Shown piece after piece: positions 10,380-33,382 of a stretch of DNA of 37,597 nucleotides. The position numbers were made by a program, and so were the translations under genes. The notes below the pieces were generated by a model. The model worked only from the letters and a program-made list of their open reading frames with translations. It searched no databases and was not told the DNA's origin. The stretch is from Gemmatimonadota bacterium (GTDB lineage: Bacteria > Gemmatimonadota > Gemmatimonadetes > JACCXV01 > JAHWKZ01): assembly GCA_025931135.1 (NCBI GenBank), contig JAICNR010000008.1, forward strand, positions 1 to 37,597, read 5' to 3'. The first letter of the stretch is position 1. The number at the start of each line of letters is the position of its first letter.

Positions 10380-11285
10380 GTGAGCGTCGACCGTTCGCGG
10401 CTGCTCACAGAGAGCGTCAATCCCCGAACCGCGGACATCGACACGCTCGAGCCGCGCGCGATCCTCGATCGGATCCACACCGAAGACCTACAGGCCGTGA
10501 CCGCGGTGGGGGAGGTCCTGGACCAGGTGGCCGCCGCTGTCGAGCGGGTCGTGCGCGCGTTTCGCGAGGGCGGGCGGCTGATCTACGTCGGCGCTGGCAC
10601 GAGCGGACGGCTGGGTGTCCTCGACGCCGTCGAGTGCCCACCCACGTTCGGCACGGATCCGTCGCTGGTGCAGGGTGTCCTCGCGGGCGGACCGGAGGCG
10701 ATGTGGCGCGCGCGCGAAGGCGCCGAGGACTCCCCCGACGATGGGGGCGCTGCGATCGCCGAGCGCGATGTCGGCCCGCGAGACGTCGTCATGGGGATCG
10801 CGGCCGGGTCGACCACGCCGTTCGTCCTGGGAGCGCTGCGCGAGGCGATCCGCCGTAACGCGGGGACCGTCTTTCTGACTTGCGTCCCTCCCGCCGACGC
10901 ACCGATCGCGCGCGAGGTGGACGTCGTCATCGCGCCTCTCACCGGCCCCGAGGTCATCGCCGGCTCCACCCGCCTGAAGGCCGGTACGGCCACGAAGCTC
11001 GTCCTCAACATGGTGACGACGGCCGCGATGGTGCGTCTCGGAAAGACCTACGGGAATCTGATGGTGGATCTCCAGGTCACCGCCGCGAAACTCGAGGACC
11101 GCGGCCGTCGGATCCTGCGCCATCTGCTGGGGGTCGACTACGACGAGGCGGGGGCCTTGCTGGCGGAAGCCGGCGGCAGAGTGAAGACCGCGCTCGTCAT
11201 GCGACGGCGCGGCGTAGGGCGCGAGGAGGCGGAGCGGCTCCTGATCGAGGCGGACGGCTTCCTGCGGAAAGCGTGGGGTGAGTGA
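10380..11285 (+). CDS. murQ: N-acetylmuramic acid 6-phosphate etherase
   Basis: A 301-residue SIS-domain lyase that splits MurNAc-6-phosphate into GlcNAc-6-phosphate and D-lactate in the cytoplasm. The start of the sugar-phosphate isomerase fold carries the MurQ signature VGAGTSGRLGVLDAVECPP (residues 70-88). E85 and E116 are spaced exactly like the two catalytic glutamates of the Escherichia coli enzyme (31 apart). Other conserved pieces are GIAAGSTTPFV, GPEVIAGSTRLKAGTATK and TYGNLMVDLQ. Length is normal for the family. The GTG start at 10380 has GAGG eight bases upstream. It is the first recycling gene of the block with anmK and nagZ. Confidence 0.95.
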   Translation: MSVDRSRLLTESVNPRTADIDTLEPRAILDRIHTEDLQAVTAVGEVLDQVAAAVERVVRAFREGGRLIYVGAGTSGRLGVLDAVECPPTFGTDPSLVQGVLAGGPEAMWRAREGAEDSPDDGGAAIAERDVGPRDVVMGIAAGSTTPFVLGALREAIRRNAGTVFLTCVPPADAPIAREVDVVIAPLTGPEVIAGSTRLKAGTATKLVLNMVTTAAMVRLGKTYGNLMVDLQVTAAKLEDRGRRILRHLLGVDYDEAGALLAEAGGRVKTALVMRRRGVGREEAERLLIEADGFLRKAWGE

Positions 11286-11290
11286 GCGTG

Positions 11291-11315
11291 GGGGGCGCCC
11301 GACGGCGACGCCCCC
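11291..11315. terminator. Hairpin between murQ and dodecin stops
   Basis: GGGGGCG (11291-11297) pairs perfectly with CGCCCCC (11309-11315) across an 11-base loop, located in the 41 bases between two convergent stops. No T tract follows in either direction. Position suggests a weak bidirectional terminator. Confidence 0.4.
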
Positions 11316-11326
11316 GCACGGCCCGA

Positions 11327-11536
11327 TCAGCGATTCGTTTCGACCTCGAAGGTGATCTTCACGTTCACCCGATAGGCCGTGATCTCCCCGTTCTCGACCA
11401 CGCCCTGCATGTTCTCCACGTAAACCGCCTTGATGCCCTTCACGGTCTCGCTCGCCTCGCGCACCGCCTTGCGGGCCGCGTCCTCCCAGCCCTTGTCCGA
11501 CTGGGCCAGCACCTCGATGACCTTGTGCACGCTCAT
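11327..11536 (-). CDS. Dodecin family flavin-binding protein
   Basis: A 69-residue protein of the dodecin family, small proteins that assemble as hollow dodecamers storing FMN, riboflavin or coenzyme A. It opens MSVHKVIEVLAQSDKGWEDA, with the Trp of the flavin-stacking position in K-G-W-E-D-A, followed by the helix ARKAVREASETVKGIKAVYV and two beta strands that close the fold. Length is exactly that of the family. The start at 11536 has a near-perfect ribosome binding site (GGGAGG, 6 bases upstream). The longer frame to 11596 is rejected for lack of one. The gene lies opposite to and inside the cell-wall recycling block, so it is likely regulated separately. An inverted repeat sits just upstream of its ribosome binding site. 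Confidence 0.93.
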   Translation of the reverse strand: MSVHKVIEVLAQSDKGWEDAARKAVREASETVKGIKAVYVENMQGVVENGEITAYRVNVKITFEVETNR

Positions 11537-11550
11537 CCACACCTCCCGGT

Positions 11551-11567
11551 TCGGGTTCGAATCCCGA
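11551..11567 (+). repeat. tRNA T-arm-like dyad upstream of dodecin
   Basis: TCGGG-TTCGAAT-CCCGA folds as a 5-bp stem with a 7-base loop that matches the tRNA T arm (TTCGAAT). No acceptor, D or anticodon arm can be placed around it, so it is not a tRNA gene. It may be a remnant of a tRNA 3' end or an operator/leader hairpin just before the dodecin ribosome binding site. Confidence 0.45.
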
Positions 11568-11640
11568 GCATACATGGAACGAGGTCGTGAGGGCACCGCT
11601 CCCCGGCGAGGCCGATCCGCGTGGGCGGGGGAGAAAAGCG

Positions 11641-11668
11641 AAAGCCCCCCTCCGGAGAGGGGGGCTTT
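11641..11668. terminator. Strong intrinsic-terminator-like hairpin
   Basis: AAAGCCCCCCTC (11641-11652) pairs perfectly with GAGGGGGGCTTT (11657-11668) around the 4-base loop CGGA, giving a 12-bp stem. On the plus strand it ends CTTTCT. On the minus strand it is followed by CGCTTTTC, so either direction is possible. It is odd because it lies between two divergent genes, upstream of both starts, with no annotated gene to terminate. Confidence 0.7.
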
Positions 11669-11838
11669 CTGACGCTACCACCGCGGGGCCGCGGTTGCTA
11701 TTCGACGGCGGCAGCGTTTCCTGCAATCTGATACTCGCTCGTGCGCGCCGGGTTCCGGGCGTCGAGAAAAAAACCACGCGAACGCTTCCACCACGAAACG
11801 GGTTGGCCGGGTGGGACCGCCCGCCTACGTTGGGTCCG

Positions 11839-13128
11839 ATGCGGAAACCGACCGAGGACGGAAGCCGAAACGGACCGGGCACGGAGTGGCCCACGCCGAT
11901 CGAGCGGCTGGCGAAGTCGCTTCGCCGCGAGGACGGCGTTCTGGTCCTCGGCCTCATGTCGGGCACGAGCGCGGACGGGGTCGACGGTGTCTGCTGTCGA
12001 TTGTCGGGGAATGGAAAGTCGCTCCGCTGCAAGGTGCTGGGGTCGGCGACCCATCCCTACAGCGATGCGATTTCCGGCGCCCTTCAAAGGCCGGAGGAGT
12101 TGACCGCGCCAGAGGTCGCGCGTCTCTCGGTGGAGATCGGAGGTGTATTCGCCGACGTCGCCGGGGCAGCTGCGGCGACGGCTCGCGTCCGGCTGGACGA
12201 CGTGGCGTTGATCGGCAGCCACGGCCAGACCCTGTGGCACGATCCGCGCGGCGAGAGGGGCGGAGTCCGGTGCACGCTCCAGATCGGAGAGGCGGCGGAG
12301 ATCGCCGAGCGGACGGGAGTCCCCGTCTGGCACGATTTCCGGACCGCCGACGTGGCCGCTGGCGGCGAGGGCGCCCCGCTCGTTCCCTACGCCGACTGGA
12401 TCCTGTTCACGCTCCCTGACCGGTGGACCGTGTGCTTGAACCTGGGCGGCATCGCGAACGTGACCTTCCTGCCGCCCGGAGCGGACAGCGGGGACGTGAC
12501 GGCTTTCGATACCGGACCCGGGAACATGGTCCTGGACGCCCTCGCCGGCCGTCTTCTCGGGGCGCGATTCGACCGGGACGGGGCGGGGGCCGAGGTGGGC
12601 ACGATAGACGACGCGCGGCTCGCTGCCGCCCTCGCGGACCCTTACTTCTCTCTGCCGGCACCGAAGTCCACCGGCAGGGAGCGGTTCGGGCACGCCTGGA
12701 CGGAACGGCATTTCGGCCCGCTGGACGGGCTCGAACATGCCGAGGCCTGCGGCCGGTTCGCGACCGCCGCCGCTTTGACGGTCGAGTCGGTCGCCCGAGC
12801 GCTCGACGGCGCGGCCGGACCGATGGTTCCCGACGACGCGCGCGTCCTCGTGTCGGGCGGCGGCCGCCGGAACCGGGCGCTCATGGCCGGGTTGCGGCGA
12901 CGACTGGCCCCCCGCCACGTGCTTCCCGTGGATGAGGCCGGACTGGACGGAGACCTCAAGGAAGCCATCGCGTTCGCGGTCCTCGCCTACGAAAGCGCGC
13001 GGGGCCGCGCGGTGGCGCTGCCGGGCGCGACCGGAGCCCGGCACCCCGCGCTCCTCGGGAAGCTGGCGTTTCCGCCGACCCCCGTCGGCGGGGGCTCCGA
13101 GATCGACGGAGCCGGGAGCGCAGGGTGA
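11839..13128 (+). CDS. anmK: 1,6-anhydro-N-acetylmuramic acid kinase
   Basis: A 429-residue kinase of the ASKHA fold that opens and phosphorylates anhydroMurNAc to MurNAc-6-phosphate, the substrate of MurQ. The family signature GLMSGTSADGVD is at residues 38-49. Other conserved pieces are IGSHGQTLWHDP, TLQIGEAAEIAERTGVPV with DFRTADVAAGGEGAPLVP, LNLGGIANVTFL, AFDTGPGNMVLDA and RVLVSGGGRRNRALM. It is longer than the roughly 370-residue E. coli enzyme, mostly through a 35-residue N-terminal extension and a low-complexity tail. The ATG at 11839 has only a weak ribosome binding site, and the real start may be a little downstream. The stop overlaps the nagZ GTG. Confidence 0.94.
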   Translation: MRKPTEDGSRNGPGTEWPTPIERLAKSLRREDGVLVLGLMSGTSADGVDGVCCRLSGNGKSLRCKVLGSATHPYSDAISGALQRPEELTAPEVARLSVEIGGVFADVAGAAAATARVRLDDVALIGSHGQTLWHDPRGERGGVRCTLQIGEAAEIAERTGVPVWHDFRTADVAAGGEGAPLVPYADWILFTLPDRWTVCLNLGGIANVTFLPPGADSGDVTAFDTGPGNMVLDALAGRLLGARFDRDGAGAEVGTIDDARLAAALADPYFSLPAPKSTGRERFGHAWTERHFGPLDGLEHAEACGRFATAAALTVESVARALDGAAGPMVPDDARVLVSGGGRRNRALMAGLRRRLAPRHVLPVDEAGLDGDLKEAIAFAVLAYESARGRAVALPGATGARHPALLGKLAFPPTPVGGGSEIDGAGSAG

Positions 13129-14723
13129 GGTCCGATCGACGGGAGATCGGCGCGGCGTCCGCGGACGCCCTCTCGCCCGCGGAGCTCGCCGGCCAGCTCG
13201 TATGCGTCGCACTCCGCGACTATCGGGGCGCCGAGGCGGACCGCGACGCGTTCCTCGGCGGGGTCGACCGACACGGGTGGGGTGGGGTGATCGTCTTCGG
13301 GGGCGACCTCGCGGCGGTCGCCGATCTCCTCGCCGAGGCCCGCGATCGCTCGCCCATCCCGCTCCTCGTGACCGGGGATTTCGAGCGCGGCCTGGGCCAG
13401 CAGTTCCCCGATTCCGGAACCCGCTTCCCGTCCTTCATGGCGTTCGGAGCCGCCGGCGATCCGGCGCTCGCGCGAGCGGCCTGGACCGAGATCGGCCGCG
13501 AGCTCGCCGCGCACGGGTTCCACGTCGATTACGCTCCGGTCGCCGACCTCGCGCTCGAGCCCGCGAACCCGATCGTGGCCGATCGCGCGGCCGCCGACGA
13601 CCCGGAGCTCGCGGCGGCGATCGTCTCCGCGGCCGTGGAGGGACTCCAGGCCGCGGGTGTTGCGGCGACCGTCAAGCACTTCCCGGGGCACGGCAGGACG
13701 ACGGTCGACAGCCACGAAGCGCTTCCCGTCGTCGACGCGGCGCGCGAGGAGCTCGAGGCCTCGGATTGGGTCCCCTTCCGGGCCGGGATCGCGGCCGGCG
13801 CGCGACTCGCGATGAGCGCCCACGTCGCATTCCCGGCGCTCGAAGCGGATCGGGCTCGCGACCGCCCCGCCACATTCTCGCGGGCGATCTCGACCGGGAT
13901 CCTGCGCGGGGAGTGGGGGTTCGAGGGCCTCCTTTGCAGTGACGCTCTCATGATGGGGGCCGTCACCGGGGAGGGTCCGGGCAATGTCGCGCGCCGCGCG
14001 CTGGAGGCCGGTATCGACTGGCTTCTCTATCCCCCCGATCCCGCGCGCCTGCACGCGGAGCTGGCGGGGGCGCTTGGCTCGGACCCCGCGCTCAGGGAAA
14101 CGTGCGTGCGTGCCGCCGGCCGCCTTCTCGAGCTCAAGCGTTGGGCGATCCGCGAGCCGTCACCGACCGGAGTCGCGATGTCCGCCGCCGCGCTGGCCGA
14201 AGCAGTGGCCGGCGCGGCGATCGTCGCCGACCCGCCCGATCCGCCCCCCGGGGCCGCGTGGCCGGACCGCGCCCAATGGGTCGTGGTCCTGGACGGAGGC
14301 ATCGGAATCGACGAGATCGTCTTCCGGGACGAGCTCGCGCCCGCGGCAGCGAGCGAGCTGATCGTGATGGACACGGCGGCGGGGTCGGACGCCGTGGTCG
14401 AGGCCATCGCGACGGTGCGGGCGAAGTGCGCCCGCGCGTGGGTCGCGTGCGCGATCTTCAGCCCGGTCCGCGCGTGGAAGGGCCGCGCCGGGCTCTCCGC
14501 GGCCGCGCGCGAAGCCGCGCGCGCGGCGACGTCGCAGGCGCGGGAATCGGTCTTGATCCTGCTGTCGAACCCACGTATCGTGAGCGAGCTGCCGGCCAAG
14601 TCCCGCATCGTCTGGACGTTCGGCGAAGCGGCCGCTAGCCAACGGGCCGCGCTCGATTTCCTGCGCGGCTCCCTGCCCCCACGCGGACGACTGCCGGTGC
14701 GGCTCTTGAGGGAACCGTCTTGA
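13125..14723 (+). CDS. nagZ: Beta-N-acetylhexosaminidase, GH3 family (NagZ-like)
   Basis: A 532-residue GH3 glycosidase without a signal peptide, so probably cytoplasmic. It would remove GlcNAc from GlcNAc-anhydroMurNAc(-peptides) during recycling. The NagZ signature KHFPGHG is at 184-190. The His/Asp pair of the mobile catalytic loop is D195-S-H197 in RTTVDSHEALPVV, and the nucleophile is D273 in GLLCSDALMMGAV. Proteobacterial NagZ is about 340 residues. The extra 170 residues here form a C-terminal alpha/beta domain (ending LPPRGRLPVRL), as in two-domain NagZ proteins of Bacillus type. The GTG start overlaps the anmK stop and has GGGAG at 13114-13118. Confidence 0.92.
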   Translation: MRSDRREIGAASADALSPAELAGQLVCVALRDYRGAEADRDAFLGGVDRHGWGGVIVFGGDLAAVADLLAEARDRSPIPLLVTGDFERGLGQQFPDSGTRFPSFMAFGAAGDPALARAAWTEIGRELAAHGFHVDYAPVADLALEPANPIVADRAAADDPELAAAIVSAAVEGLQAAGVAATVKHFPGHGRTTVDSHEALPVVDAAREELEASDWVPFRAGIAAGARLAMSAHVAFPALEADRARDRPATFSRAISTGILRGEWGFEGLLCSDALMMGAVTGEGPGNVARRALEAGIDWLLYPPDPARLHAELAGALGSDPALRETCVRAAGRLLELKRWAIREPSPTGVAMSAAALAEAVAGAAIVADPPDPPPGAAWPDRAQWVVVLDGGIGIDEIVFRDELAPAAASELIVMDTAAGSDAVVEAIATVRAKCARAWVACAIFSPVRAWKGRAGLSAAAREAARAATSQARESVLILLSNPRIVSELPAKSRIVWTFGEAAASQRAALDFLRGSLPPRGRLPVRLLREPS

Positions 14724-14745
14724 ACCTTCTCCCCGCCTCGCGAGT

Positions 14746-16143
14746 ATGAACAAGCGCATGCCGATCCGGACCCGAGACATCGCGATGCTGCTCGCCAGCC
14801 TGCTGTGCGTGCTGGTCGTTTCCTCGACCGCGCACGCTCCACGCTCGATCCGCGCCCAATCCGTCCAGGACGACCTCTTCGCTGTGCCCGTCGGGCTCGA
14901 GCGCGCGGTCGACTTCTGGAAGCGGGTCTACGGCGAGTGGAGTGAGCACGAGGTCACGTTTCACGATCGCGACGATCTGGGGATCGTGTATCGCACGATG
15001 CACCAGCAGAAGTCGGAGACACCGTCCGGCTACGCGGCGAACGAAGCGGCGCAGGAAGCGATCATCGATCGCTACCGCCGCATTCTGCTGGATCTGGCGA
15101 CCCGGAATCCCGATCCGCGAACGTTGAGCGGCGAATACCTCGCGGTCCACCAGCTGTTCGGCGCCCAGGGGAACCCCGAGCGTTGGAGGCAGGCGGCGGA
15201 TCGCATCCGCGTTCAGCGCGGGCTCAAGGAGCGGTTCCACCGCGGTCTCCTCCACGCGGGTCAGTATCGCGAGCACATTCTCGAGATCTTCCGTGAGGAG
15301 GAGATCCCCGAGGAGATCGCCTGGCTTCCCATGGTCGAGTCGACGTTCAACGTTGAGGCGCGCTCCAAAGTCGGAGCCGCCGGAGTGTGGCAGTTCATGC
15401 CCGGGACCGGGCGGCAATACATGCGAGTGGACGCCACGATCGACGAGCGGCTGGATCCGATCATCGCTGCGCGCGGCGCGGCGCGTCTCCTCCGCCACAA
15501 CTACCAGGGACTGCGTTCGTGGCCGCTGGCACTAACAGCCTACAACCACGGGTACTACGGGATGCAGCGCGCGGTCCGCCAGCTGGGCACGAACGACTAC
15601 ATGACGATCCGCCGCCTGTACGACGGGCCGGCCTTCGGCTTCGCCAGCAAGAACTTCTACGCCGAGTTCCTGGCCGCGCTGCACGTCGCCGAGAACGCGG
15701 AGCAGTACTTCGGGATCCACGAGCCCTTCAAGACGCTCGAGTTCGACGTCGTGTCGATGCCGGTGTCGATGTCGCTGCGGGACGTGGCCAGCGCCGTCCA
15801 GGTCGACGCCACCCGTCTGTGGCAGATGAACCCCTCGCTGACCGACGATGTCTGGGCGGGCAGGCGTTCGGTCCCGTCCGGATTCCGGCTGCGCGTTCCT
15901 CCGGGCTACGGCCGCGAGGCGCCGCTCCAGCTCGCCGCTTCCGCCGCGAGCCGCGACCCGCGCTCCTCCCGGCCCCCGACTCCCGCGGCGGAGGGTCCCC
16001 GCACCTACACCGTGCAGCGCGGGGACACGCTGACGTCGATCGCGACGCGCCACGGGATCTCCGTCGGTGAGCTGATCGCGCTCAACGACCTGGGTGATCG
16101 CGACGTCATCCGGGTCGGGCAGAGGCTCGTGCTGTCGCGGTAG
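14746..16143 (+). CDS. mltD: MltD-type lytic transglycosylase with LysM
   Basis: A 465-residue exported protein (N-terminal hydrophobic segment at about 12-29). The SLT catalytic domain has E198 in LPMVESTFN as catalytic acid, followed by SKVGAAGVWQFMPGTGRQY and LALTAYNHGYYGM, all typical of MltD/Slt family 1. A degenerate LysM (SLRDVASAVQVDATRLWQMN) and one clear C-terminal LysM (TYTVQRGDTLTSIATRHGIS) bind glycan strands. It cleaves peptidoglycan to 1,6-anhydromuropeptides in the periplasm, feeding the AnmK, NagZ and MurQ genes just upstream. It lacks a lipobox, unlike the second paralogue at 28271. The start is 14746 or 14758, and neither has a strong ribosome binding site. Confidence 0.9.
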   Translation: MNKRMPIRTRDIAMLLASLLCVLVVSSTAHAPRSIRAQSVQDDLFAVPVGLERAVDFWKRVYGEWSEHEVTFHDRDDLGIVYRTMHQQKSETPSGYAANEAAQEAIIDRYRRILLDLATRNPDPRTLSGEYLAVHQLFGAQGNPERWRQAADRIRVQRGLKERFHRGLLHAGQYREHILEIFREEEIPEEIAWLPMVESTFNVEARSKVGAAGVWQFMPGTGRQYMRVDATIDERLDPIIAARGAARLLRHNYQGLRSWPLALTAYNHGYYGMQRAVRQLGTNDYMTIRRLYDGPAFGFASKNFYAEFLAALHVAENAEQYFGIHEPFKTLEFDVVSMPVSMSLRDVASAVQVDATRLWQMNPSLTDDVWAGRRSVPSGFRLRVPPGYGREAPLQLAASAASRDPRSSRPPTPAAEGPRTYTVQRGDTLTSIATRHGISVGELIALNDLGDRDVIRVGQRLVLSR

Positions 16144-16161
16144 ACGGTCCGTCCGTGGGGG

Positions 16162-16617
16162 TCAGCCCTCACCCTCGGTCTCCGAGAACTCGACGGCCAC
16201 GATCGCACGGCTCGTCAGCCAGGCGCGCTCCAGGTTGAGCGCGCGGCTCAGAGGGTCGGTCGGGAAGAGGAAGAAACCCGGCTGATCCGGCCGATAGTCG
16301 TAGGTGATCCCCACCAGCACCTCCCCCCACGCGCTCGTGACGTTCAGGGACCGGCCACCGACGGAGGGCGGCTTGGGCATCGGAGCGAGATCGTCTTCAG
16401 GCTCGTAGCGGCGGCTGCGGTCGAACGCGAAGTCACGCACGAAGAACACCGCCAAGGTGTCCGCAAACTGGATCTCACGCCGTTCGCCCGTCTCGCCGGC
16501 GGGGCCGGCCAGGCGCAGATGGAAGGTCGGCTCGAGCGGATTGAAGACGCGCGAGTGCCCCTTGATCCGCGTGCCGTCCCCGAGCAGGACCACGATCCGG
16601 TTGTCCATGGCGTTCAC
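16162..16617 (-). CDS. Small conserved protein, DUF6982-like
   Basis: About 150 residues, cytoplasmic, no signal peptide. The sequence follows a pattern I associate with small proteins of Acidobacteria and deltaproteobacteria annotated as DUF6982. It runs VVLLGDGTRIKGHSRVFNP, then FHL, then TLAVFFVRDFAFDRS, then GEVLVGITYDY, GFFLFPTDP and a final AIVAVEF. The family number is from memory and should be checked. The function is unknown, and such proteins often sit beside PilZ or type IV pilus genes, which is not the case here. A GTG at 16617 has GAGG eight bases upstream and is preferred. ATG at 16608 is an alternative. It is convergent with mltD and separates it from the symporter. Confidence 0.6.
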   Translation of the reverse strand: MNAMDNRIVVLLGDGTRIKGHSRVFNPLEPTFHLRLAGPAGETGERREIQFADTLAVFFVRDFAFDRSRRYEPEDDLAPMPKPPSVGGRSLNVTSAWGEVLVGITYDYRPDQPGFFLFPTDPLSRALNLERAWLTSRAIVAVEFSETEGEG

Positions 16618-16700
16618 ACTAGCCGCCTCGCGACTGCGCATCAACATCGCCCCGGGCCACCGGGCGATTTTGCGGACTCGACACTAGGTTTCGTCCGCCC

Positions 16701-18512
16701 ATGTCCGACCTTTCCTCCTTTTTCGCCCAGCTCCACTGGCTCGACTGGGCCGTTATCGCGGCGTACTTCGCGCTCTCGCTGGGCGTCGGCCTGTGGTTCA
16801 TGCGGCGCGCCGGTTCCTCGACAGCGGAGTTCTTCGTCTCGGGGCGCGATCTGCCGTGGTGGCTCGCCGGCACGTCGATGGTCGCGACGTCGTTCTCCGT
16901 AGATACCCCGCTCCTGATCACCGGCTTCGTCCGGACGCAGGGCATTCAGGGCAACTGGATCTGGTGGTGCTTCGCGATCGGCGGAGTGTTCTCCGCGTTC
17001 GTGTTCGCCCAGTTGTGGCGCCGAACCGAGGTCATGACCGACGTCGAGCTGACCCAGCTCCGCTACTCCGGCCGGCCCGCGGCCGCGCTGCGCGGATTTC
17101 GCGCCGTCTATATGACTCTGTACGCCAACTGCCTCACGATGGCCTGGGTGATGCTCGCGATGGTCAAGGTGTTCGGGACGGTTTTCGACGTGGGGACGCT
17201 GGAGGCGACGCTGTTCGCGGCCGTGATCACGCTCGCGTACTCGATGGTGTCGGGTCTGTGGGGCGTGGTGGTCACCGACCTGGTGCAGTTCGCGCTCGCC
17301 ATGCTGGGAGCGATCGTTCTCGCCTGGTTCGTCGTCGACGAAGTCGGAGGTCTGGCGGCCATGCTCGATGGCGTGCGCGCTACCGCGGGAGCGGACGTGC
17401 TGGGCTTCCTGCCGCGGCTCGAGGACAGCGGTCCGGCGGCGTCGAGCGGCACTTGGTGGGGAGACCTCCTGTCCTGGTCGGCCACGCCGGTCGCGGCGTT
17501 CCTAATCCTGATCACGCTCCAGTGGTGGGCGAACAAGAACGCCGACGGCGGCGCGGTCGTGATCCAGCGTATGGCGGCGTCGCGCGACGAGCGCGAGTCC
17601 GTCCTCGGGACGCTGTGGTTCCAGGTCGCCAACTACGCGCTGCGCCCGTGGCCGTGGATCCTGGTGGCGCTGGGATCGCTCATCCTGTACCCGACGATGG
17701 ACGACCCGGAGCTCGCCTACCCCCAGGCGATGGTGGACTACCTGCCCGTGGGGCTCCTGGGACTCATGCTGGCGGCGTTCCTGGCGGCCTTCATGTCGAC
17801 GTTGACGTCGTTCATAAACCTGTCCGCGGCCTACCTCGTGAACGACCTCTACCGGCCGTTCCTGGCCCGCGGCCGGGAAGATCGTCACTACGTCCAGGCC
17901 GGCCGGGTGGCCTCCTTCGTCGCGCTCGCGATCGGCGTCGTGATCAGCTTCTACGCGACCTCGATCTCGGGGCTGTTCCTGCTCCTCCTGACCCTGGGGG
18001 CGGGGATCGGGCTGGTCTACGTGGCGCGCTGGTTCTGGTGGCGGGTGAACGCGTGGAGCGAGATCTCGGCCATGGTCGCGAGCTCGCTGATCGGCGCCGC
18101 GCTCCAGCTCTCGCCCGAGTGGGGCGGCCCGACATTCCCCTTCGCGGCGAAGGTGTTCCTGAACCTGATCGGCTCGACGGCGGTGTGGATCGCGGTGACC
18201 TACGCGACCCCGCCCACGTCGATGGAGCGGCTGGTCGAGTTCTACCGCCGGGTGCGGCCGCCCGGCTGGTGGGGGCCGGTCCGGGAAGCGATCGGCCAGC
18301 CGCCTCGCGCGCGCACCGAAGGTCTGCGCCGGGGACTCGCGCTCTGGGCGCTCGGCACGACGTTCATCTACGCGGCCATGTTCGCGGTCGGGAAGCTGCT
18401 TCTCCTGGAGTGGGGCTGGGGGACGGGATTGGGCCTGGTGGCGGTCGTCACCGGGTGGGCGCTCTCCCGTCAGCTGACGCGCGAGCGGGTGGCGAAGCTG
18501 CTGGGGGGTTGA
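16701..18512 (+). CDS. Sodium:solute symporter (SSS family)
   Basis: A 603-residue polytopic inner-membrane protein with about 13-14 membrane helices. The N-terminus has the family pattern WAVIAAYFALSLGVGLWFM, then TAEFFVSGRDLPWWLAG, then TSMVATSFSVDTPL, which contains the Na+-site region of helix 1. Later FLAAFMSTLTSFINLSAAYLVNDLY is the conserved SSS segment of helix 8, with Ser/Thr residues that form the Na2 site. Substrates in this family range from sugars and sialic acid to amino acids, and the sequence alone does not decide. Its place just after murQ-anmK-nagZ-mltD suggests an amino sugar, muropeptide or anhydrosugar, but that is inference. The last 65 bases overlap the convergent amidohydrolase gene. 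Confidence 0.9.
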   Translation: MSDLSSFFAQLHWLDWAVIAAYFALSLGVGLWFMRRAGSSTAEFFVSGRDLPWWLAGTSMVATSFSVDTPLLITGFVRTQGIQGNWIWWCFAIGGVFSAFVFAQLWRRTEVMTDVELTQLRYSGRPAAALRGFRAVYMTLYANCLTMAWVMLAMVKVFGTVFDVGTLEATLFAAVITLAYSMVSGLWGVVVTDLVQFALAMLGAIVLAWFVVDEVGGLAAMLDGVRATAGADVLGFLPRLEDSGPAASSGTWWGDLLSWSATPVAAFLILITLQWWANKNADGGAVVIQRMAASRDERESVLGTLWFQVANYALRPWPWILVALGSLILYPTMDDPELAYPQAMVDYLPVGLLGLMLAAFLAAFMSTLTSFINLSAAYLVNDLYRPFLARGREDRHYVQAGRVASFVALAIGVVISFYATSISGLFLLLLTLGAGIGLVYVARWFWWRVNAWSEISAMVASSLIGAALQLSPEWGGPTFPFAAKVFLNLIGSTAVWIAVTYATPPTSMERLVEFYRRVRPPGWWGPVREAIGQPPRARTEGLRRGLALWALGTTFIYAAMFAVGKLLLLEWGWGTGLGLVAVVTGWALSRQLTRERVAKLLGG

Positions 18513-19770
18513 GGCCCTCGCGCGGGCGGACGCGGTTGGGGAGCGGGTCCGGCTCGCGGAACCAGCGACCTCGCACCATCACGCCGGCCGGCGCCTCGAG
18601 AGCCCCGAGGTCCTCGAGCGGATCGCGGTCCAGCAGGAGCAGGTCCGCTCTCGCGCCGGGCGCGATGACGCCGAACTCCCCGACCTGACCGAGGAACTCG
18701 GCGGCCCCCGCGGTCGCCATGCGAAGTGCCTCGAGAGGCGGGATGCCGGCCGCGACGAACTCCTCGAGCTCGTCGTGGAGCGAGGCGCCCGGATCCACCA
18801 CTTCGATCCCCGCGTCGGACCCGACCAGGAGCCCGGCACCCGCTCGGTGCAGCGCCCGGACCATCGCGCCGCGGTTCGCTCGCGACGCATCCCGCTCGTC
18901 CGCGGGGAGCGCGCGCCCCAGCCGGTGGGCGATCGTCAGCGTCGGGCATACCCAGGCGCCGGCCGCCTCGGTGGCCGCGGCGAGCGCGGGGATCCGCTCG
19001 GAGCGGGTCCGGACCCAGGCGCGTGGACCTCGCCCCCCCACCAGAGTCAGCTCCTCCAGGTAGCCGGACAGGTGCTCGAGCGAGCGCTGACCGGAGGCGA
19101 GCACCCGCTCGAGCCCGACGCGGTGGGGGACGTGGCCCACGAAGTCCATCCCGCGCCGCCGCGCCGCGGCGACGATCGAGTCGTACGGTTCCGCCCTCAG
19201 ATCCTGGTAGACCTTGAGGGTCGTATACCCGGCCCGCCGCTGGACCTCCACCACGCTGTCGGCGACGGTGGGGTCCATGACGAGCTGAGTGAGCGGCCAC
19301 TTGGGCGGCGTGCCGTCCAGCCCCGAGCTCACGAGATGAATCGCGGGGCCGAGGATCTCGCCGCGCTCGATCTCTCCGCGCATGACCCACGCGTCGGGGA
19401 AGCCCCACATGTTCCGAACCGTTGTGACCCCGAACGCGAGGTAGGTGTCGAGATCCTCGCGATTCAGGTGGACGTGCATGTCCGCGAGGCCGGGCATCAG
19501 GGTTCGCCCGCGGCCGTCGACGACGAGCGCGCCCTCCGGCGCCGCGAGGTCGCTCGCCGACCCCACCCAGCGGATCCTGTCTCCCTCGATCAGGACGGAC
19601 TGCGAGTCGCGCGGTCCCGACCCGTCCATCGGGAGGAGTCGGACGTCGACGATCGCGACGGGGGGCGCGGCGGGAGGCGCGAGAGGCGCGGTCACCAGGA
19701 GAGGCAGGACCACCGGCAGCAGCCGGCCCACACCTCGTCGCGCACCGCCGTACGTCGGGTGGAACCCCAC
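18448..19770 (-). CDS. Secreted metal-dependent amidohydrolase
   Basis: About 440 residues: a signal peptide followed by an amidohydrolase-superfamily TIM barrel of the imidazolonepropionase/prolidase-like type. Metal-binding motifs are visible as LADMHVHLN (H-x-H), the lysine in TTLKVYQDL, H in MDFVGHVPHRVG and RSLEHLSGY, and the Asp in LLVGSDAGIEVV. The composite domain at both ends (VAIVDVRLLPMDGS, ADLLLLDRDPLEDL) is typical. Such secreted enzymes hydrolyse dipeptides or cyclic amides. The start is uncertain: GTG 19770 was chosen, with TTG 19779 and GTG 19731 as alternatives. The last 25 residues are Pro/Ala/Arg-rich and are read from DNA that also codes the symporter end, probably a stop-loss extension. 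Confidence 0.8.
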   Translation of the reverse strand: MGFHPTYGGARRGVGRLLPVVLPLLVTAPLAPPAAPPVAIVDVRLLPMDGSGPRDSQSVLIEGDRIRWVGSASDLAAPEGALVVDGRGRTLMPGLADMHVHLNREDLDTYLAFGVTTVRNMWGFPDAWVMRGEIERGEILGPAIHLVSSGLDGTPPKWPLTQLVMDPTVADSVVEVQRRAGYTTLKVYQDLRAEPYDSIVAAARRRGMDFVGHVPHRVGLERVLASGQRSLEHLSGYLEELTLVGGRGPRAWVRTRSERIPALAAATEAAGAWVCPTLTIAHRLGRALPADERDASRANRGAMVRALHRAGAGLLVGSDAGIEVVDPGASLHDELEEFVAAGIPPLEALRMATAGAAEFLGQVGEFGVIAPGARADLLLLDRDPLEDLGALEAPAGVMVRGRWFREPDPLPNRVRPREGLNPPAASPPARASADGRAPTR

Positions 19771-19823
19771 GGGGTCCAAACGGCGTCGGGCAGGTGCCGG
19801 TTTGTTCCGCTACTTTCGCCGTC

Positions 19824-21719
19824 ATGCCCCATCGCAACGTCTTCCGGATTCTCGCACTGGCCGCGAGCCTTGGGCTCGCCACCGCCGACGCGACCGCTCA
19901 GGACGACCTCGCGGTCACGATCCAGTATCCGCCCGCGGGGGCTGCGGTCACGGCTACGGATTCCACGTTCGTATTCGGACGGGTCGACGGTGCGAGCGGC
20001 GAGACGGTCGAGCTCTCCGTCGGCGGGAGCCCGGCCCACGTCCACGCCGGCGGCGGTTGGATCGCGTACGTCCCGCTGGAGCCGGACTCGTTCACGTTCG
20101 ACGTCGTCGCCACGGCGAGCGACGGGCGCCGGGCCGAGGCGCGGCGCACGGTGTGGGTTCCGCGTTCGCCCCTCGCGGCGCCGACGGGCGACACCCTGGG
20201 TTACCGGCCCGAAACGATCGACCCGCGCGGGGCACTGGAGCTCTATGCCGGCGACACCGTCCAGGTCTCGGTGGTCGCGGCGCCGGGGATGGAGATCCGC
20301 GCACGGGTGGGAGGGAGCGGCGTGCGGCTCTCGCCGGGGTTCCCGGACGGCGCGAATCCAGGGCGACTGGTCTTCGACTTCGCCGATCCCCCGGAAACGC
20401 AATGGACCGCGGATCCCCCTCGCCCCGCGGACGGACCCTGGAAGCGCTACGCGGGTGACCTGTACCTGACGCTCTCGGGTGCGGCTTCCGATTCCCTGTG
20501 GCTCGATGTCACCGATCCGGCGGGTCGGATGCGGACGGTTCCGGTGGCGGAGATCTCGTTCCTCGACCCGACCGTGATCCCGACCGCCGTCCTCCACGAC
20601 GACACGGCGGGTGCCGGGGGAACCGACCACCGGGTAATCGCCCGCCACGGCGCGGGCGCCGGCTATTCCCTCTTTCTGCCGAACGGCACGCATGCCGCGC
20701 TCGGCCGGCGGGTCGGGGACTGGCGCGAGATCGCGCTCGCTCCCGGGACGCGCGCCTGGACTCCGCTGGCGGAGACCCACCCGGTCGACGCCGCGCGGCC
20801 GACGAGCCGGATCCGCGTGATCCGAACCCGCACGCGGGACGGATGGAGCGAAGTCGTGATTCCGACGACGGAGCGGCTCCCCTTCCGGCTCCGCCAGGAT
20901 CTGGAGCCCGCGCGGTATGCGATCTCGGTCTTCGGCGCACTCGCCGACGTCGACTACGTCCAGTACACGTTCTCGGATCCCCTCGTCGAGTCCATCGATT
21001 GGGGTCAACCCGAGACGGGAACGCTCGAAGTCGAGGTCACGCTGTCCGGCGAGCGCGCGTGGGGCCACCGCGCGTACTGGGAGGGATCCCACCTCGTGAT
21101 CGGGTTCCGTCATCCGCCCCCGGCGCTGTCGGACCGCCGCTTCCGCTCCCCGCTCCACGGGGTCCGGATTGTCGTCGATCCCGGTCACAACCCCGACACG
21201 GGAGCGGTCGGACCGACCGGACTCGAGGAGCGCGAAGCGAACCTCGCGATCTCGCTCGAGCTGGCCCGGATTCTCGAACGGCGGGGGGCGCTGGTGACCC
21301 TCACCCGCGCGACGCCGGACTCCGCGCTCGGGCTCTACCCCCGGACGGACGTGGCGATCGCTGCGGGGGGGGAGCTCTTTATCTCGATCCACAACAACGC
21401 CCTTCCGGACGGCGTGAACCCGTTTCTCAACAACGGCACCTCGGTGCTGTACTATCATCCGCAGTCGCGGGAGCTCGCGGAGTCGATCCAGGCGGAGCTC
21501 CTGCCCCGGACGGCGCTTACCGACCGGGGCGTGTGGCATCAGAACGTGGCCGTCCTGCGGATGAACGAGATGCCCGCGGTGCTGGTCGAGGCTGCGTTCA
21601 TGATGATCCCCGAACAGGAGGCGGCACTGCGCACGCCGGAGTTCCGCCGGCGGATCGCGGAAGGCGTCGCCGCGGGCATCGAGCGGTATCTCGAGGCACG
21701 GGAAGGAGCATTGCGTTGA
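19824..21719 (+). CDS. Exported N-acetylmuramoyl-L-alanine amidase (Amidase_3)
   Basis: A 631-residue protein with signal peptide (cleavage near ATA-Q). A long N-terminal part of Ig-like and AMIN-like beta domains (residues about 25-435, including RVDGASGETVELSVGG and TGTLEVEVTLSGERAWG) is followed by a C-terminal zinc amidase of the AmiA/B/C type. Zinc ligands are H455 in VVDPGHNPD, E469 in GLEEREANL and H in LFISIHNNALP. The catalytic Glu is in PAVLVEAAFMM. It cuts the MurNAc-L-Ala bond in peptidoglycan during cell separation. The large N-terminal region probably targets it to the septum or regulates it. ATG 19824 was chosen because it starts the signal peptide. The stop overlaps the TTG start of the ankyrin gene. 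Confidence 0.9.
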   Translation: MPHRNVFRILALAASLGLATADATAQDDLAVTIQYPPAGAAVTATDSTFVFGRVDGASGETVELSVGGSPAHVHAGGGWIAYVPLEPDSFTFDVVATASDGRRAEARRTVWVPRSPLAAPTGDTLGYRPETIDPRGALELYAGDTVQVSVVAAPGMEIRARVGGSGVRLSPGFPDGANPGRLVFDFADPPETQWTADPPRPADGPWKRYAGDLYLTLSGAASDSLWLDVTDPAGRMRTVPVAEISFLDPTVIPTAVLHDDTAGAGGTDHRVIARHGAGAGYSLFLPNGTHAALGRRVGDWREIALAPGTRAWTPLAETHPVDAARPTSRIRVIRTRTRDGWSEVVIPTTERLPFRLRQDLEPARYAISVFGALADVDYVQYTFSDPLVESIDWGQPETGTLEVEVTLSGERAWGHRAYWEGSHLVIGFRHPPPALSDRRFRSPLHGVRIVVDPGHNPDTGAVGPTGLEEREANLAISLELARILERRGALVTLTRATPDSALGLYPRTDVAIAAGGELFISIHNNALPDGVNPFLNNGTSVLYYHPQSRELAESIQAELLPRTALTDRGVWHQNVAVLRMNEMPAVLVEAAFMMIPEQEAALRTPEFRRRIAEGVAAGIERYLEAREGALR

Positions 21720-22294
21720 GCGACCGGGACGAGCTCTGGCTGGCCATCTGCGAAGGAGACCACGCCACCATCGAGGCGCTGGTGGAAACGCGGCCGGACC
21801 TCGCGAGCGGGAAGACCGACGAGGGGCTACCCTGGGCGCTGGCGGCGGTCTACCGAGGCCATCCGGGGATCGCGGACCTCCTTCTCCGGCACGGGGCCGA
21901 GCTGGATCCGTTCACCGCGGCGGCTCTCGGGCGGACCGATCAGCTCGAGGTCCTCATCGATCGCGGCGAGGTCGCGCCCGGCGCGCGCAGCCCCGACGGC
22001 TGGACCCCGCTCCACCTGGCCGCGTTCTTCGGTCATCGCGACACCGCCGCGATGCTGCTCGATCGCGGCGCGGACCTGGCCGCGCGCTCGACGAACGACC
22101 TCGAGAACACCCCGCTCCACGCCGCGCTGGCGGGGGGGCGCGGGCTGGTGGCCGAGCTCCTCGTGGAGCGCGGCGCGGACGTCAACGCCGCGGCGGCGGG
22201 CCTGCGCCCTCTCGACATCGCCGTAGGAAGGGAGGACCACGAGATGGTGGAGTATCTGACGCGACATGGCGCCTCGCGAGGGGAGGAGAGGTGA
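21716..22294 (+). CDS. Ankyrin-repeat protein with TTG start
   Basis: A 192-residue soluble protein built of about five ankyrin repeats. Typical units are DGWTPLHLAAFFGHRDTAAMLL followed by RGADLAARSTNDLENTPLHAALAGG (quoted across the repeat), then VAELLVERGADVNAAAAG. The start is a TTG at 21716 that overlaps the amidase stop (TTGAG). It is supported by GGAAGGAG at 21701-21708, seven bases upstream, while no in-frame ATG precedes the first repeat. No signal peptide, so it is cytosolic. Ankyrin repeats bind other proteins, and the partner is unknown. It sits in a fully overlapping chain with amidase, DUF1028 protein and glycyl-tRNA synthetase, which implies coupled translation. Confidence 0.85.
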   Translation: MSDRDELWLAICEGDHATIEALVETRPDLASGKTDEGLPWALAAVYRGHPGIADLLLRHGAELDPFTAAALGRTDQLEVLIDRGEVAPGARSPDGWTPLHLAAFFGHRDTAAMLLDRGADLAARSTNDLENTPLHAALAGGRGLVAELLVERGADVNAAAAGLRPLDIAVGREDHEMVEYLTRHGASRGEER

Positions 22295-28270: not shown

Positions 28271-29755
28271 GTGACATTGGTGCGGATGATCCGTCCGTTC
28301 ACGATGGCGACCGCCACGGTCCTGCTGGCGGCCTGCGCAGCGCAGAAGCCCCCCGTCTCATCCTATGGCCCGCCGCCGCGCGTCACGGAGCCGACTCCCA
28401 CTGCTTCGGAGGAGTTCGCGCTGATCGTCGGGGACGAGCTGACCGAGCAGGAGCAGCAGGATCTTGCCACCATCCGCGCAACGACGTACACGCCGCCCCC
28501 CGACGCGAGCCCGCCACAGCTGGACGCGGGCCTAACGGAGCTGCTGGCGCAGGAAGGCGCGGTCCTGATCCACGAGAAGGTCGGGTACGACATTCCGATC
28601 GTCCTGAACGACCGGGTGGAATGGTGGATCGATTACTTCACGACGCGCATCCCCGATTCCTTCCGGCGCTATCTGATCCGCTCGGGTGCCTGGATGCCCT
28701 ACCTCAAGGCGCAGCTCCGCGAGGCGGGGCTGCCCGAGGACATGGCCTACCTGGCGCTCATCGAAAGCGGGTTCTCCACTCAGGCCGTGAGTCACGCGGG
28801 CGCGGTGGGGCCGTGGCAGTTCATGCCCTACACTGGAAGGGAGTACGGGCTGCGGATCGACCGCTGGGTGGACGAGCGGCGGGACTATGTGAAGGCGACC
28901 CAGGCGGCGATCGCCTACCTCAGCGATCTGCACGCGATGCTCGGCTCGTGGTACCTGGCTGCGGCCGGCTACAACGGCGGACAGGGCCGCGTCGGGCGCG
29001 CGATGATGCGCGACAACACGATCAACTTCTGGGAGCTGACCGGGATTCACGACGAAACGAAGAACTACGTGCCGAAGCTGATCGCGGCCACGCTGATCGC
29101 GAAGGAGCCCGAGCTCTACGGCTTCTACGCGGTTCCGTACCTCGAGCCGGTGGAGTGGGAGACCATCACGGTTCCGACGAGCACGGACCTGGGTGTCATC
29201 GCCCGCGCGGCGGAGGTCCCCGTCGAGACGGTCCGCGCCATGAATCCGCATCTCCTTCGGGGACGGACGCCCCCGGGTGAGTCGAATTTTCCCGTCCATA
29301 TCCCGAGCGAGAGCGTGCAGACCTTCACAGAGAACTACTACCGCGTGCCGCCGGCGGAGCGGATCCAGCTGCCCGCCGAGCACCCGGTGCGGAGCGGCGA
29401 GACGATCACCGGGATCGCCCTCGCGTACGGCATCGACGCGCGCGAGTTGCTCGCGGAGAACGATCTCCGGAGCCCGGATGAGCTCGAGGTCGGGATGGTC
29501 CTTCGGCTCCCGGGAGTGGAGCCGGGCGAGCCGGTCGCCACCTCGCCGGGCGGGACCACCGGGACGACTGCGCCCGCCACGCTGGCGCCCGAGCGAGAGG
29601 TGGAGACCGGGGCCCCGAGGACCCACCGCGTCCGGCGCGGCGAGACCCTGGCGGGGATCTCCCGCGCGTACGGGGTGTCGATCGCCGATCTGCGGCAGAT
29701 GAACGGGATTCGGGGGGACAGGATCCTGGTCGGCCAGACCCTCCGCATCCCGTAG
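28271..29755 (+). CDS. MltD-type lytic transglycosylase lipoprotein, two LysM
   Basis: A 494-residue lipoprotein: lipobox V-L-L-A-A-C22 after a basic start, then a Pro-rich linker. The SLT domain has E165 in YLALIESGFST as catalytic acid, followed by AGAVGPWQFMPYTGREYGL and YLAAAGYNGGQGRVGRAM. One partial and two clear LysM motifs follow (HPVRSGETITGIALAYGIDA and HRVRRGETLAGISRAYGVSI). It is a periplasm-facing, membrane-anchored peptidoglycan lyase producing anhydromuropeptides, a paralogue of the LysM protein at 14746. GTG at 28271 has GAGG five bases upstream. The stop TAG at 29753-29755 abuts a long palindromic element. Confidence 0.9.
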   Translation: MTLVRMIRPFTMATATVLLAACAAQKPPVSSYGPPPRVTEPTPTASEEFALIVGDELTEQEQQDLATIRATTYTPPPDASPPQLDAGLTELLAQEGAVLIHEKVGYDIPIVLNDRVEWWIDYFTTRIPDSFRRYLIRSGAWMPYLKAQLREAGLPEDMAYLALIESGFSTQAVSHAGAVGPWQFMPYTGREYGLRIDRWVDERRDYVKATQAAIAYLSDLHAMLGSWYLAAAGYNGGQGRVGRAMMRDNTINFWELTGIHDETKNYVPKLIAATLIAKEPELYGFYAVPYLEPVEWETITVPTSTDLGVIARAAEVPVETVRAMNPHLLRGRTPPGESNFPVHIPSESVQTFTENYYRVPPAERIQLPAEHPVRSGETITGIALAYGIDARELLAENDLRSPDELEVGMVLRLPGVEPGEPVATSPGGTTGTTAPATLAPEREVETGAPRTHRVRRGETLAGISRAYGVSIADLRQMNGIRGDRILVGQTLRIP

Positions 29756-32257: not shown

Positions 32258-33382
32258 ATGAGCAAGAAGCGCTGGCTCTCCGGACCGTCTATCCGGCCAG
32301 ATCCCATCACCGCGGGCATGACGGCTGCGGACCTCGTGGACACCGCGTATCTCGCGTACAACGGAGGCCGCCTTCGCGAGGCCTGCGAGCTGTATACGCA
32401 GAAGATGCTGGCCGACGACGCGCTGGTGGGAATGTCGCTGACCGGCGCTTTGACGCCGGCCGGGATCGGGATGACGTGCCTGATCCCGCTGGTCGAGGCG
32501 GGGTTCGTGGATTGGATCGTGTCGACGGGAGCGAACCTCTATCACGACACACACTTCGGGATCGGCCTCGAGATGCACCGCGGCCGGCCTCACCTCGACG
32601 ATACGGTGTTGCGCGAGGCGGGCGTGGTGCGGATCTACGACATCCTGTTCGACTACGAGGTCCTGCTCAAGACGGACGCGTTCTTCCGCCGGATCATGAC
32701 CGCTTCGGAGTTTCAGAAGGAGATGGGAACGGCGGAGTTCCACTGGCTCTGCGGCAAATACGTCGCCGAGCGGGAGGTTGCACTCGGCCGACGAGGCACG
32801 TCGGTCCTGGCCGCCGCGTACCGTATGGGCGTCCCCGTGTACACGTCATCGCCGGGGGACTCCTCGATCGGGATGAACGTGGCGGAGCTCGAGCTCCGCG
32901 GGAACAAGCTGCGGATCGACCCTGCGCGCGACGTGAACGAGACCGCCGCCATCGTCTGGGACGCGAAGAGCGGAGGGGGCAAGAGCGGAGTCCTGATCCT
33001 GGGTGGGGGGTCGCCGAAGAACTTCGTGCTCCAGACGGAGCCCCAGATCCAGGAAGTGCTGGGCCTCGAGGAAGCCGGGCACGACTACTACCTGCAGATC
33101 ACCGACGCTCGTCCGGACACCGGCGGGCTCTCGGGCGCCACGCCTGGGGAGGCGGTGTCGTGGGGCAAGGTCGATCCGGAGAAGCTGCCCGACGCGGTCG
33201 TCTGCTACGCCGACACGACGATCGCGCTGCCGCTCCTGACAGCCTACGCGCTCGACCGGCACCCGCCGCGCGAGCCGCGCAGGCTGTTCGACCGCCGGGC
33301 GGACATGTACGACCGACTCGTCGCGGCGTACCGCGAGACGGCCGGGTCGCGCGAGCCCGGCGAGATCGTGGACGCCGGATGA
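32258..33382 (+). CDS. Deoxyhypusine synthase-like protein
   Basis: A 374-residue member of the deoxyhypusine synthase family. The catalytic lysine that forms the enzyme-aminobutyl intermediate is kept as K304 in [12 protein letters not shown]. The NAD-binding parts [36 protein letters not shown] and the final [16 protein letters not shown] match the family well. True deoxyhypusine synthases modify eIF5A, which bacteria lack. Bacterial homologues make homospermidine (SpeY-type) or are uncharacterised. AGGGAGGAG upstream supports ATG 32258, 29 bases after the DHH gene. The stop overlaps the HIRAN ATG. A polyamine-modifying role is the best inference. Confidence 0.88.

Follow-up and report, generated by a model that had tools for sequence, protein, structure and literature searches.

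How do the sugars of the cell wall return to the cytoplasm in a bacterium that carries the genes for their re-use and no recognisable AmpG permease? This question is raised by a 37,597-nucleotide stretch of Gemmatimonadota DNA (the window; contig JAICNR010000008.1 of assembly GCA_025931135.1, our contig C165), in which murQ, anmK, a nagZ-like gene and a gene for an MltD-like lytic transglycosylase are followed by a gene for a sodium/solute symporter of the SSS/SLC5 type (16701..18512, + strand). The genome is a draft of 2.43 Mb in 249 contigs that is 81% complete, and together with 60 relatives it makes up the set of 61 genomes used here (G labels denote genomes, L labels loci). We consider it probable that the symporter is a Na+-coupled importer of peptide-free GlcNAc-anhydroMurNAc (N-acetylglucosamine linked to anhydro-N-acetylmuramic acid) or of anhydroMurNAc, and that it stands in for AmpG. 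Gene context supports the view that the locus would serve to recycle sugars from the peptidoglycan of the cell itself, with the symporter doing the import job of AmpG. What the analysis shows is the gene identities obtained by profile searches, the SLC5 fold of a structure model, the conserved position (slot) of the symporter gene, the presence of AmpG in that slot in some relatives, and slot genomes that gave no match to AmpG (as counted below) or to families of peptide salvage.

The slot behind anmK

MurQ, the N-acetylmuramic acid 6-phosphate etherase (10380..11285, +), scored 347.7 bits against TIGR00274 (cut-off 302) and has a glutamate in an ECPPTFG motif, which we take to be functional. 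AnmK, the anhydro-N-acetylmuramic acid kinase (11839..13128, +), scored 403.7 bits against NF007148 (cut-off 387) and also matched PF03702; since the latter match begins at 11941, the ATG at 11839 is more likely to be the start than the GTG at 11587. The GH3 beta-N-acetylglucosaminidase that follows (13125..14723, +; PF00933, 218.5 bits) contains at residues 184-197 a KHFPGHG...DSH sequence, presumably the NagZ motif, and no signal peptide was seen in its N-terminal hydropathy. Its 147.8 bits against NF003740 lie below the cut-off of 207, and it is therefore called NagZ-like. Similarly, the transglycosylase (14746..16143, +) has SLT (PF01464) and LysM (PF01476) domains and a signal-like N-terminus, and is called MltD-like because its 94.7 bits against NF008050 fall far below the cut-off of 508. 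Downstream of the symporter gene lies that of an N-acetylmuramoyl-L-alanine amidase of the Amidase_3 type (19794..21719, +; PF01520, 5.7e-41), with a signal-like N-terminus and an uncertain start.

In the comparison, the slot was defined as a long SSF match that shares the strand of anmK and lies no more than 10 kb downstream of it, and only long SSF matches among the matches listed were used. Three genomes (G025, G051 and G055) were counted as non-slot: their SSF adjoins a nagZ match, yet no contig shows it within 10 kb of anmK. The NagZ query matched 60 of the 61 genomes, as did the symporter query, the latter often in several copies, and AnmK was found in 51. The slot was present in 24 of these 51, with a gap of 1,451-1,565 bp in 18 of the 24, and slot genomes span five families (f1, 4; f2, 1; f3, 14; f4, 1; f9, 4). 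The co-occurrence with anmK that a previous, sequence-only reading of the window had led one to expect was thus recovered, and orthologues of the symporter do not stand consistently beside unrelated genes.

When 15 loci of relatives were read (16 with the window), nagZ was found between anmK and SSF in every one. The murQ gene was present in 13 (none in L036, where anmK is at the contig start, or in L042), an amidase match lay near SSF in 12 (none in L037, L038, where a contig end cuts the locus, or L041), and an MltD match occurred in 4, from families f1 and f2. In L043, L045, L046 and L047 the nagZ stop and the SSF start, as called by the open reading frame (ORF) finder, overlap by 4 bp. AmpG takes the place of SSF in the same gene order in G017 and G013, and also in G032, where no nagZ was detected; G014 and G035 have a weaker AmpG next to nagZ, on the opposite strand. 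Of 20 anmK loci that were read in the other genomes, one (in G028; L071, 2757-4304, -) carries, between anmK and the amidase, an SSF of another kind, of 516 aa and 26% identity, with a HEAT-repeat gene as its neighbour, and the other 19 had no SSF or AmpG match nearby, some of these stretches being cut by contig ends.

A search with the AmpG profile TIGR00901 gave no match in the window's genome, as far as its 81% completeness reaches, and this agrees with the earlier remark that no AmpG-like permease is seen. The five nearest relatives (G001-G005, with G003 only 55% complete) likewise gave no match. Across the 61 genomes, 4 had a match above the cut-off and 13 had some match at E 0.001. We counted as AmpG carriers the four above the cut-off (G013, G016, G017 and G032) plus G014 and G035 (292.8 and 278.3 bits, below it), and did not count G055 (122.8 bits), which has no LdcA match, or six genomes whose matches are short and weak (30.6 bits or less), namely the slot genomes G027, G030, G039 and G054 together with G051 and G059. 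As to other possible importers, EIIC of the phosphotransferase system (PTS) was found in 1 of the 61 genomes, and SBP_bac_5 in 47, the window's genome included. No match to AmpG, PTS EIIC or SBP_bac_5 was found in nine of the slot genomes, and genus g5 accounts for all nine.

The symporter itself matched PF00474 with 104 bits (cut-off 22.8) and the NCBIfam superfamily model TIGR00813 with 123 bits, below that model's cut-off of 184; it belongs to SSF and not to the major facilitator superfamily (MFS) of AmpG. An AlphaFold2 model made from 12 sequences (predicted local distance difference test, pLDDT, 73.4; predicted template modelling score, pTM, 0.77) matched SGLT1 in Foldseek (1.1e-15) and aligned with SGLT2 over 500 residues (Z 29.2) and with vSGLT (Z 28.6). 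The structure alignments gave about 20% identity to vSGLT and SGLT, which share the SLC5 fold and differ in their substrates. Because NIS (Z 27.6) and SMCT1 (Z 26.9) come close behind, the model supports a symporter of the LeuT-like SLC5 fold and does not fix the substrate. In a profile alignment, S366 and T367 of the window symporter fall on the Ser-Ser pair of vSGLT, which we take to be part of its sodium site, and this is only a hint of Na+ coupling.

Symporter relatives in other phyla

Named genomes were scanned with an alignment of SSF, and the best 80 loci of 578 relatives were considered; many of these are cut by contig ends, and two of them, L096 (one of the loci counted for anmK, nagZ and glyS) and L112, belong to genomes of the relatives set. 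In view at these best 80 of 578 were murQ (8 loci), anmK (5) and a NagZ-like GH3 gene (11), with at least one of the three at 18; as a rough control in the same 80, glyS was seen at 2 and a cystathionine beta-synthase gene at 1. Members of the subfamily adjoin murQ, anmK or NagZ-like genes in Dadabacteria, Nitrospirota, Planctomycetota and Acidobacteriota. The gene orders include murQ-anmK-nagZ-SSF in Dadabacteria (L140), murQ-anmK-SSF (L169), murQ-SSF-anmK in Gemmatimonadota (L157), nagZ-SSF-nagA-like with 4-bp overlaps and no murQ in the stretch seen in Nitrospirota (L097), nagZ-SSF in Planctomycetota (L106), and both BadF kinase-SSF-murQ (L113) and SSF-murQ-murA (L141) in Acidobacteriota. 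Another wall-linked arrangement of the subfamily is the order GH3-(unnamed gene)-SpoIID-SSF in TMED46 (L152, 6765-12931). AmpG was searched for in the genomes of 48 of the 80 named loci, where 19 had any match at E 0.001 and 1 was above the cut-off. In the 12 searched genomes with murQ, anmK or nagZ beside SSF, none had AmpG above the cut-off (0/12); two matches of 153 and 134 bits, both below it, were seen in the genome of L157 (G070), and a weak one in G069.

In a quick SSF tree of 110 rows, from which L127 and L136 were missing (no usable ORF) and L112 had been dropped (same contig as G029), the peptidoglycan (PG) label, carried by 22 rows, needs 5 changes, of which at least 4 are forced by starred branches. 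In a careful tree of 46 rows, L157 and L129 group with clade A, that of the window (98/96), and clade B is separate (100/100). A single clade for A and B was not rejected (approximately unbiased, AU, p 0.116), though the two are apart in three trees. A further group, clade C (family f5; L076, L077, L078, L079, L081, L082 and L083), has a related SSF that adjoins a GH3 gene, often together with a second, shorter SSF. Its GH3 protein looks exported in L076 and L078, with a lipobox-like start, and several clade C genomes also carry a murQ-anmK-nagZ cluster without a transporter.

Cargo and competing explanations

The route that we propose would start outside the inner membrane, where the amidase would strip the peptides from the wall and the MltD-like enzyme would cut the glycan to GlcNAc-1,6-anhydroMurNAc. 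The symporter would then import the peptide-free disaccharide, or anhydroMurNAc, with sodium; here we infer substrate, coupling and direction alike. In the cytoplasm, NagZ would release GlcNAc, AnmK would phosphorylate and open anhydroMurNAc to give MurNAc-6-P, and MurQ would turn this into GlcNAc-6-P. The reactions of NagZ, AnmK, MurQ, the amidase and MltD-like enzymes are well established for their families.

Whether the cargo carries peptide was judged from two kinds of evidence. First, the NagZ-like proteins of slot loci have no signal peptide wherever the start can be judged by N-terminal hydropathy, and therefore the GlcNAc-anhydroMurNAc bond probably reaches the cytoplasm. Second, since no Amidase_2, no LdcA and no Mpl above its cut-off was found in the window's genome, its block would salvage sugars only. 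The same holds more widely for two of these markers: LdcA (PF02016) was found in 0/24 slot genomes versus 18/27 other anmK genomes, Mpl (above the TIGR01081 cut-off, which leaves out G056 with 351 bits against 388.7) in 0/24 versus 7/27, and AmpG, as counted above, in 0/24 versus 6/27, all six AmpG carriers having LdcA. Fisher p values, which treat the genomes as independent and do not stand for significance, were 1.7e-7 for LdcA, 0.011 for Mpl and 0.024 for AmpG. Amidase_2/AmpD was also tried as a marker of peptide salvage and proved uninformative (5/61 genomes; 2/24 slot and 3/27 other anmK genomes). These distributions fit the view that SSF would go with sugar-only salvage and AmpG with salvage of sugar plus peptide. 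The sequence-only reading had offered anhydromuropeptides or free anhydrosugars as the cargo; gene context supports the import role, and the peptide-free sugar is favoured over muropeptides because no signal peptide is seen in the linked NagZ wherever a start can be judged, and because none of the 24 slot genomes has LdcA or Mpl.

The alternative that survives best, though we consider it unlikely, is that what enters through the symporter is a free monosaccharide produced outside the cell (GlcNAc, or MurNAc/anhydroMurNAc), and not the disaccharide. The precedent is MurT of Tannerella forsythia, encoded in murT-murK-murQ, which several papers describe as a member of the sodium symporter superfamily that imports MurNAc (PMC5790795; PMC5388701; PMC7670621). 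An SSS-type importer of a wall sugar is thus already known, and MurT as described resembles the window symporter in its type and in the nearness of murQ, although its partner kinase is MurK and not AnmK. PMC7670621 predicts no AnmK orthologue for Tannerella and mentions AmpG as a separate protein. A modified amino sugar can likewise be an SSS cargo, as OngIT is described in part of PMC9537276 as importing the oxidised amino sugar GlcNAc1A; here too the likeness to the window symporter is one of description, and the substrate is another. The exported-looking GH3 beside SSF in two clade C loci (L076 and L078) and the order BadF kinase-SSF-murQ in L113 would also suit import of a single sugar. 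Rhodothermus is reported to be without AmpG and to have a NagZ orthologue with a signal peptide (PMC6987092), which resembles the situation in clade C. In the window and in clades A and B, however, NagZ looks cytoplasmic, and at most of the loci that were read its gene lies immediately before SSF or one gene away, an arrangement that makes sense if the GlcNAc-anhydroMurNAc bond reaches the cytoplasm.

Quite improbable, in our view, is the import of whole anhydromuropeptides, sugar plus peptide, as by AmpG. AmpG occupies the same slot in relatives, G025 keeps LdcA, and Amidase_2 is present in two slot genomes (G007 and G039). Moreover, a different class of L,D-carboxypeptidase is reported for Acinetobacter (PMC8649774), so that trimming of peptides would be possible where LdcA is absent. 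Against this stand the absence of LdcA and Mpl from all 24 slot genomes, while LdcA accompanies AmpG in every carrier, and the best fold matches, which are transporters of small solutes. Import of the peptide-free sugar is the reading that we prefer.

Several observations weigh against that preference. In families f5, f6 and f7 neither SSF nor AmpG adjoins most of the anmK clusters, and 62 of the best 80 of 578 named loci are without murQ, anmK or a nagZ-like gene. NIS and SMCT1 fit the model nearly as well as the sugar transporters, G025 combines an SSF beside nagZ with LdcA, and in the window itself another gene separates the symporter from mltD. Three SBP_bac_5 genes are present in the window's genome, and because of them an ATP-binding cassette (ABC) importer may serve there. 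The count of independent events is also small. A tree built from anmK and murQ covers 41 of the 51 anmK genomes (murQ is lacking from 5), and on it there are 3 changes of the slot, 4 of AmpG and 6 of LdcA. Since the slot changes only three times, the contrasts come down to 2 independent pairs on starred branches, or 3 on all branches, and the LdcA contrast is without significance. That the symporter carries an unrelated solute, or a side product like the lactate that MurQ releases, and stands beside these genes by chance would be in keeping with the NIS and SMCT1 scores and the 62 named loci, but is very unlikely given a slot that is kept in five families, is filled by AmpG in others and recurs in other phyla, as in L097.

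Compared with AmpG, the window symporter would perform the same inner-membrane import step, and in some relatives AmpG fills the equivalent slot next to the murQ, anmK and nagZ genes; the symporter differs in superfamily (SSF, not MFS) and, with LdcA and Mpl absent from slot genomes, probably in a cargo that is free of peptide. A replacement of AmpG has a parallel in YejBEF-YepA of Agrobacterium, which according to part of PMC9790009 takes over from AmpG; it acts where AmpG is absent, as is proposed for the symporter, but is an ABC transporter with muropeptides as cargo. Among listings of openly licensed PMC papers, our searches found none in which AnmK or NagZ is connected with an SSS symporter or in which an AmpG substitute of the SSS type is named. 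If the proposal is true, this would be, as far as the literature searched goes, the first SSS importer of an anhydro-disaccharide. More tentatively, we suggest a distinct and widespread form of wall recycling in which the symporter imports peptide-free GlcNAc-anhydroMurNAc, LdcA and Mpl do not return the peptides to use, and SSS proteins replaced AmpG, in what may have been more than one event (in clades A and B of Gemmatimonadota, in Dadabacteria and in Nitrospirota). This would suggest a split between sugar-only and sugar-plus-peptide recycling. Many genomes here have NagZ-like, AnmK and MurQ genes and no recognisable AmpG, and for these the symporter is a candidate family for import of the fragments. 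Nine g5 genomes have the slot and no match to the three other importers, and a cargo free of peptide is a sharp prediction of the proposal.

The gene row of the window

The sequence-only reading had described murQ, anmK, nagZ and the MltD gene as adjacent on one strand. The identities hold by profile, whereas the adjacency does not: a dodecin gene (11333..11539, -; PF07311, 1.2e-24) breaks the row between murQ and anmK. Its distance of 0.56 kb from mltD to the symporter was confirmed as 558 bp from stop to start, a stretch that contains a DUF6982 gene (16162..16647, -; PF22478, 3.6e-11). At the matching place G001 has two tandem copies of DUF6982 (L036, 4268-5256), and none was seen in genomes of the sister genus g2, where the symporter gene lies directly behind mltD (L037 and L038). 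A third minus-strand gene, of the amidohydrolase family (about 18448-19779; PF01979), is convergent to the symporter gene and lies between it and the amidase gene; it is kept in G001, and its assignment rests on the profile match and the substitution pattern against G001. With these three genes interrupting the row, a single operon from murQ to the symporter was rejected for the window.

Further along, ankyrin repeats (about 21900-22294, +) form the end of an ORF (20498-22294) behind the amidase gene. A second MltD-like gene (28271-29755, +; NF008050, 175.2 bits, below the cut-off of 508) lies near a gene with a GWxTD domain. Finally, the window carries a gene of the deoxyhypusine synthase family (32258-33382, +; PF01916, 3.5e-72), an enzyme best known from eukaryotes and archaea.

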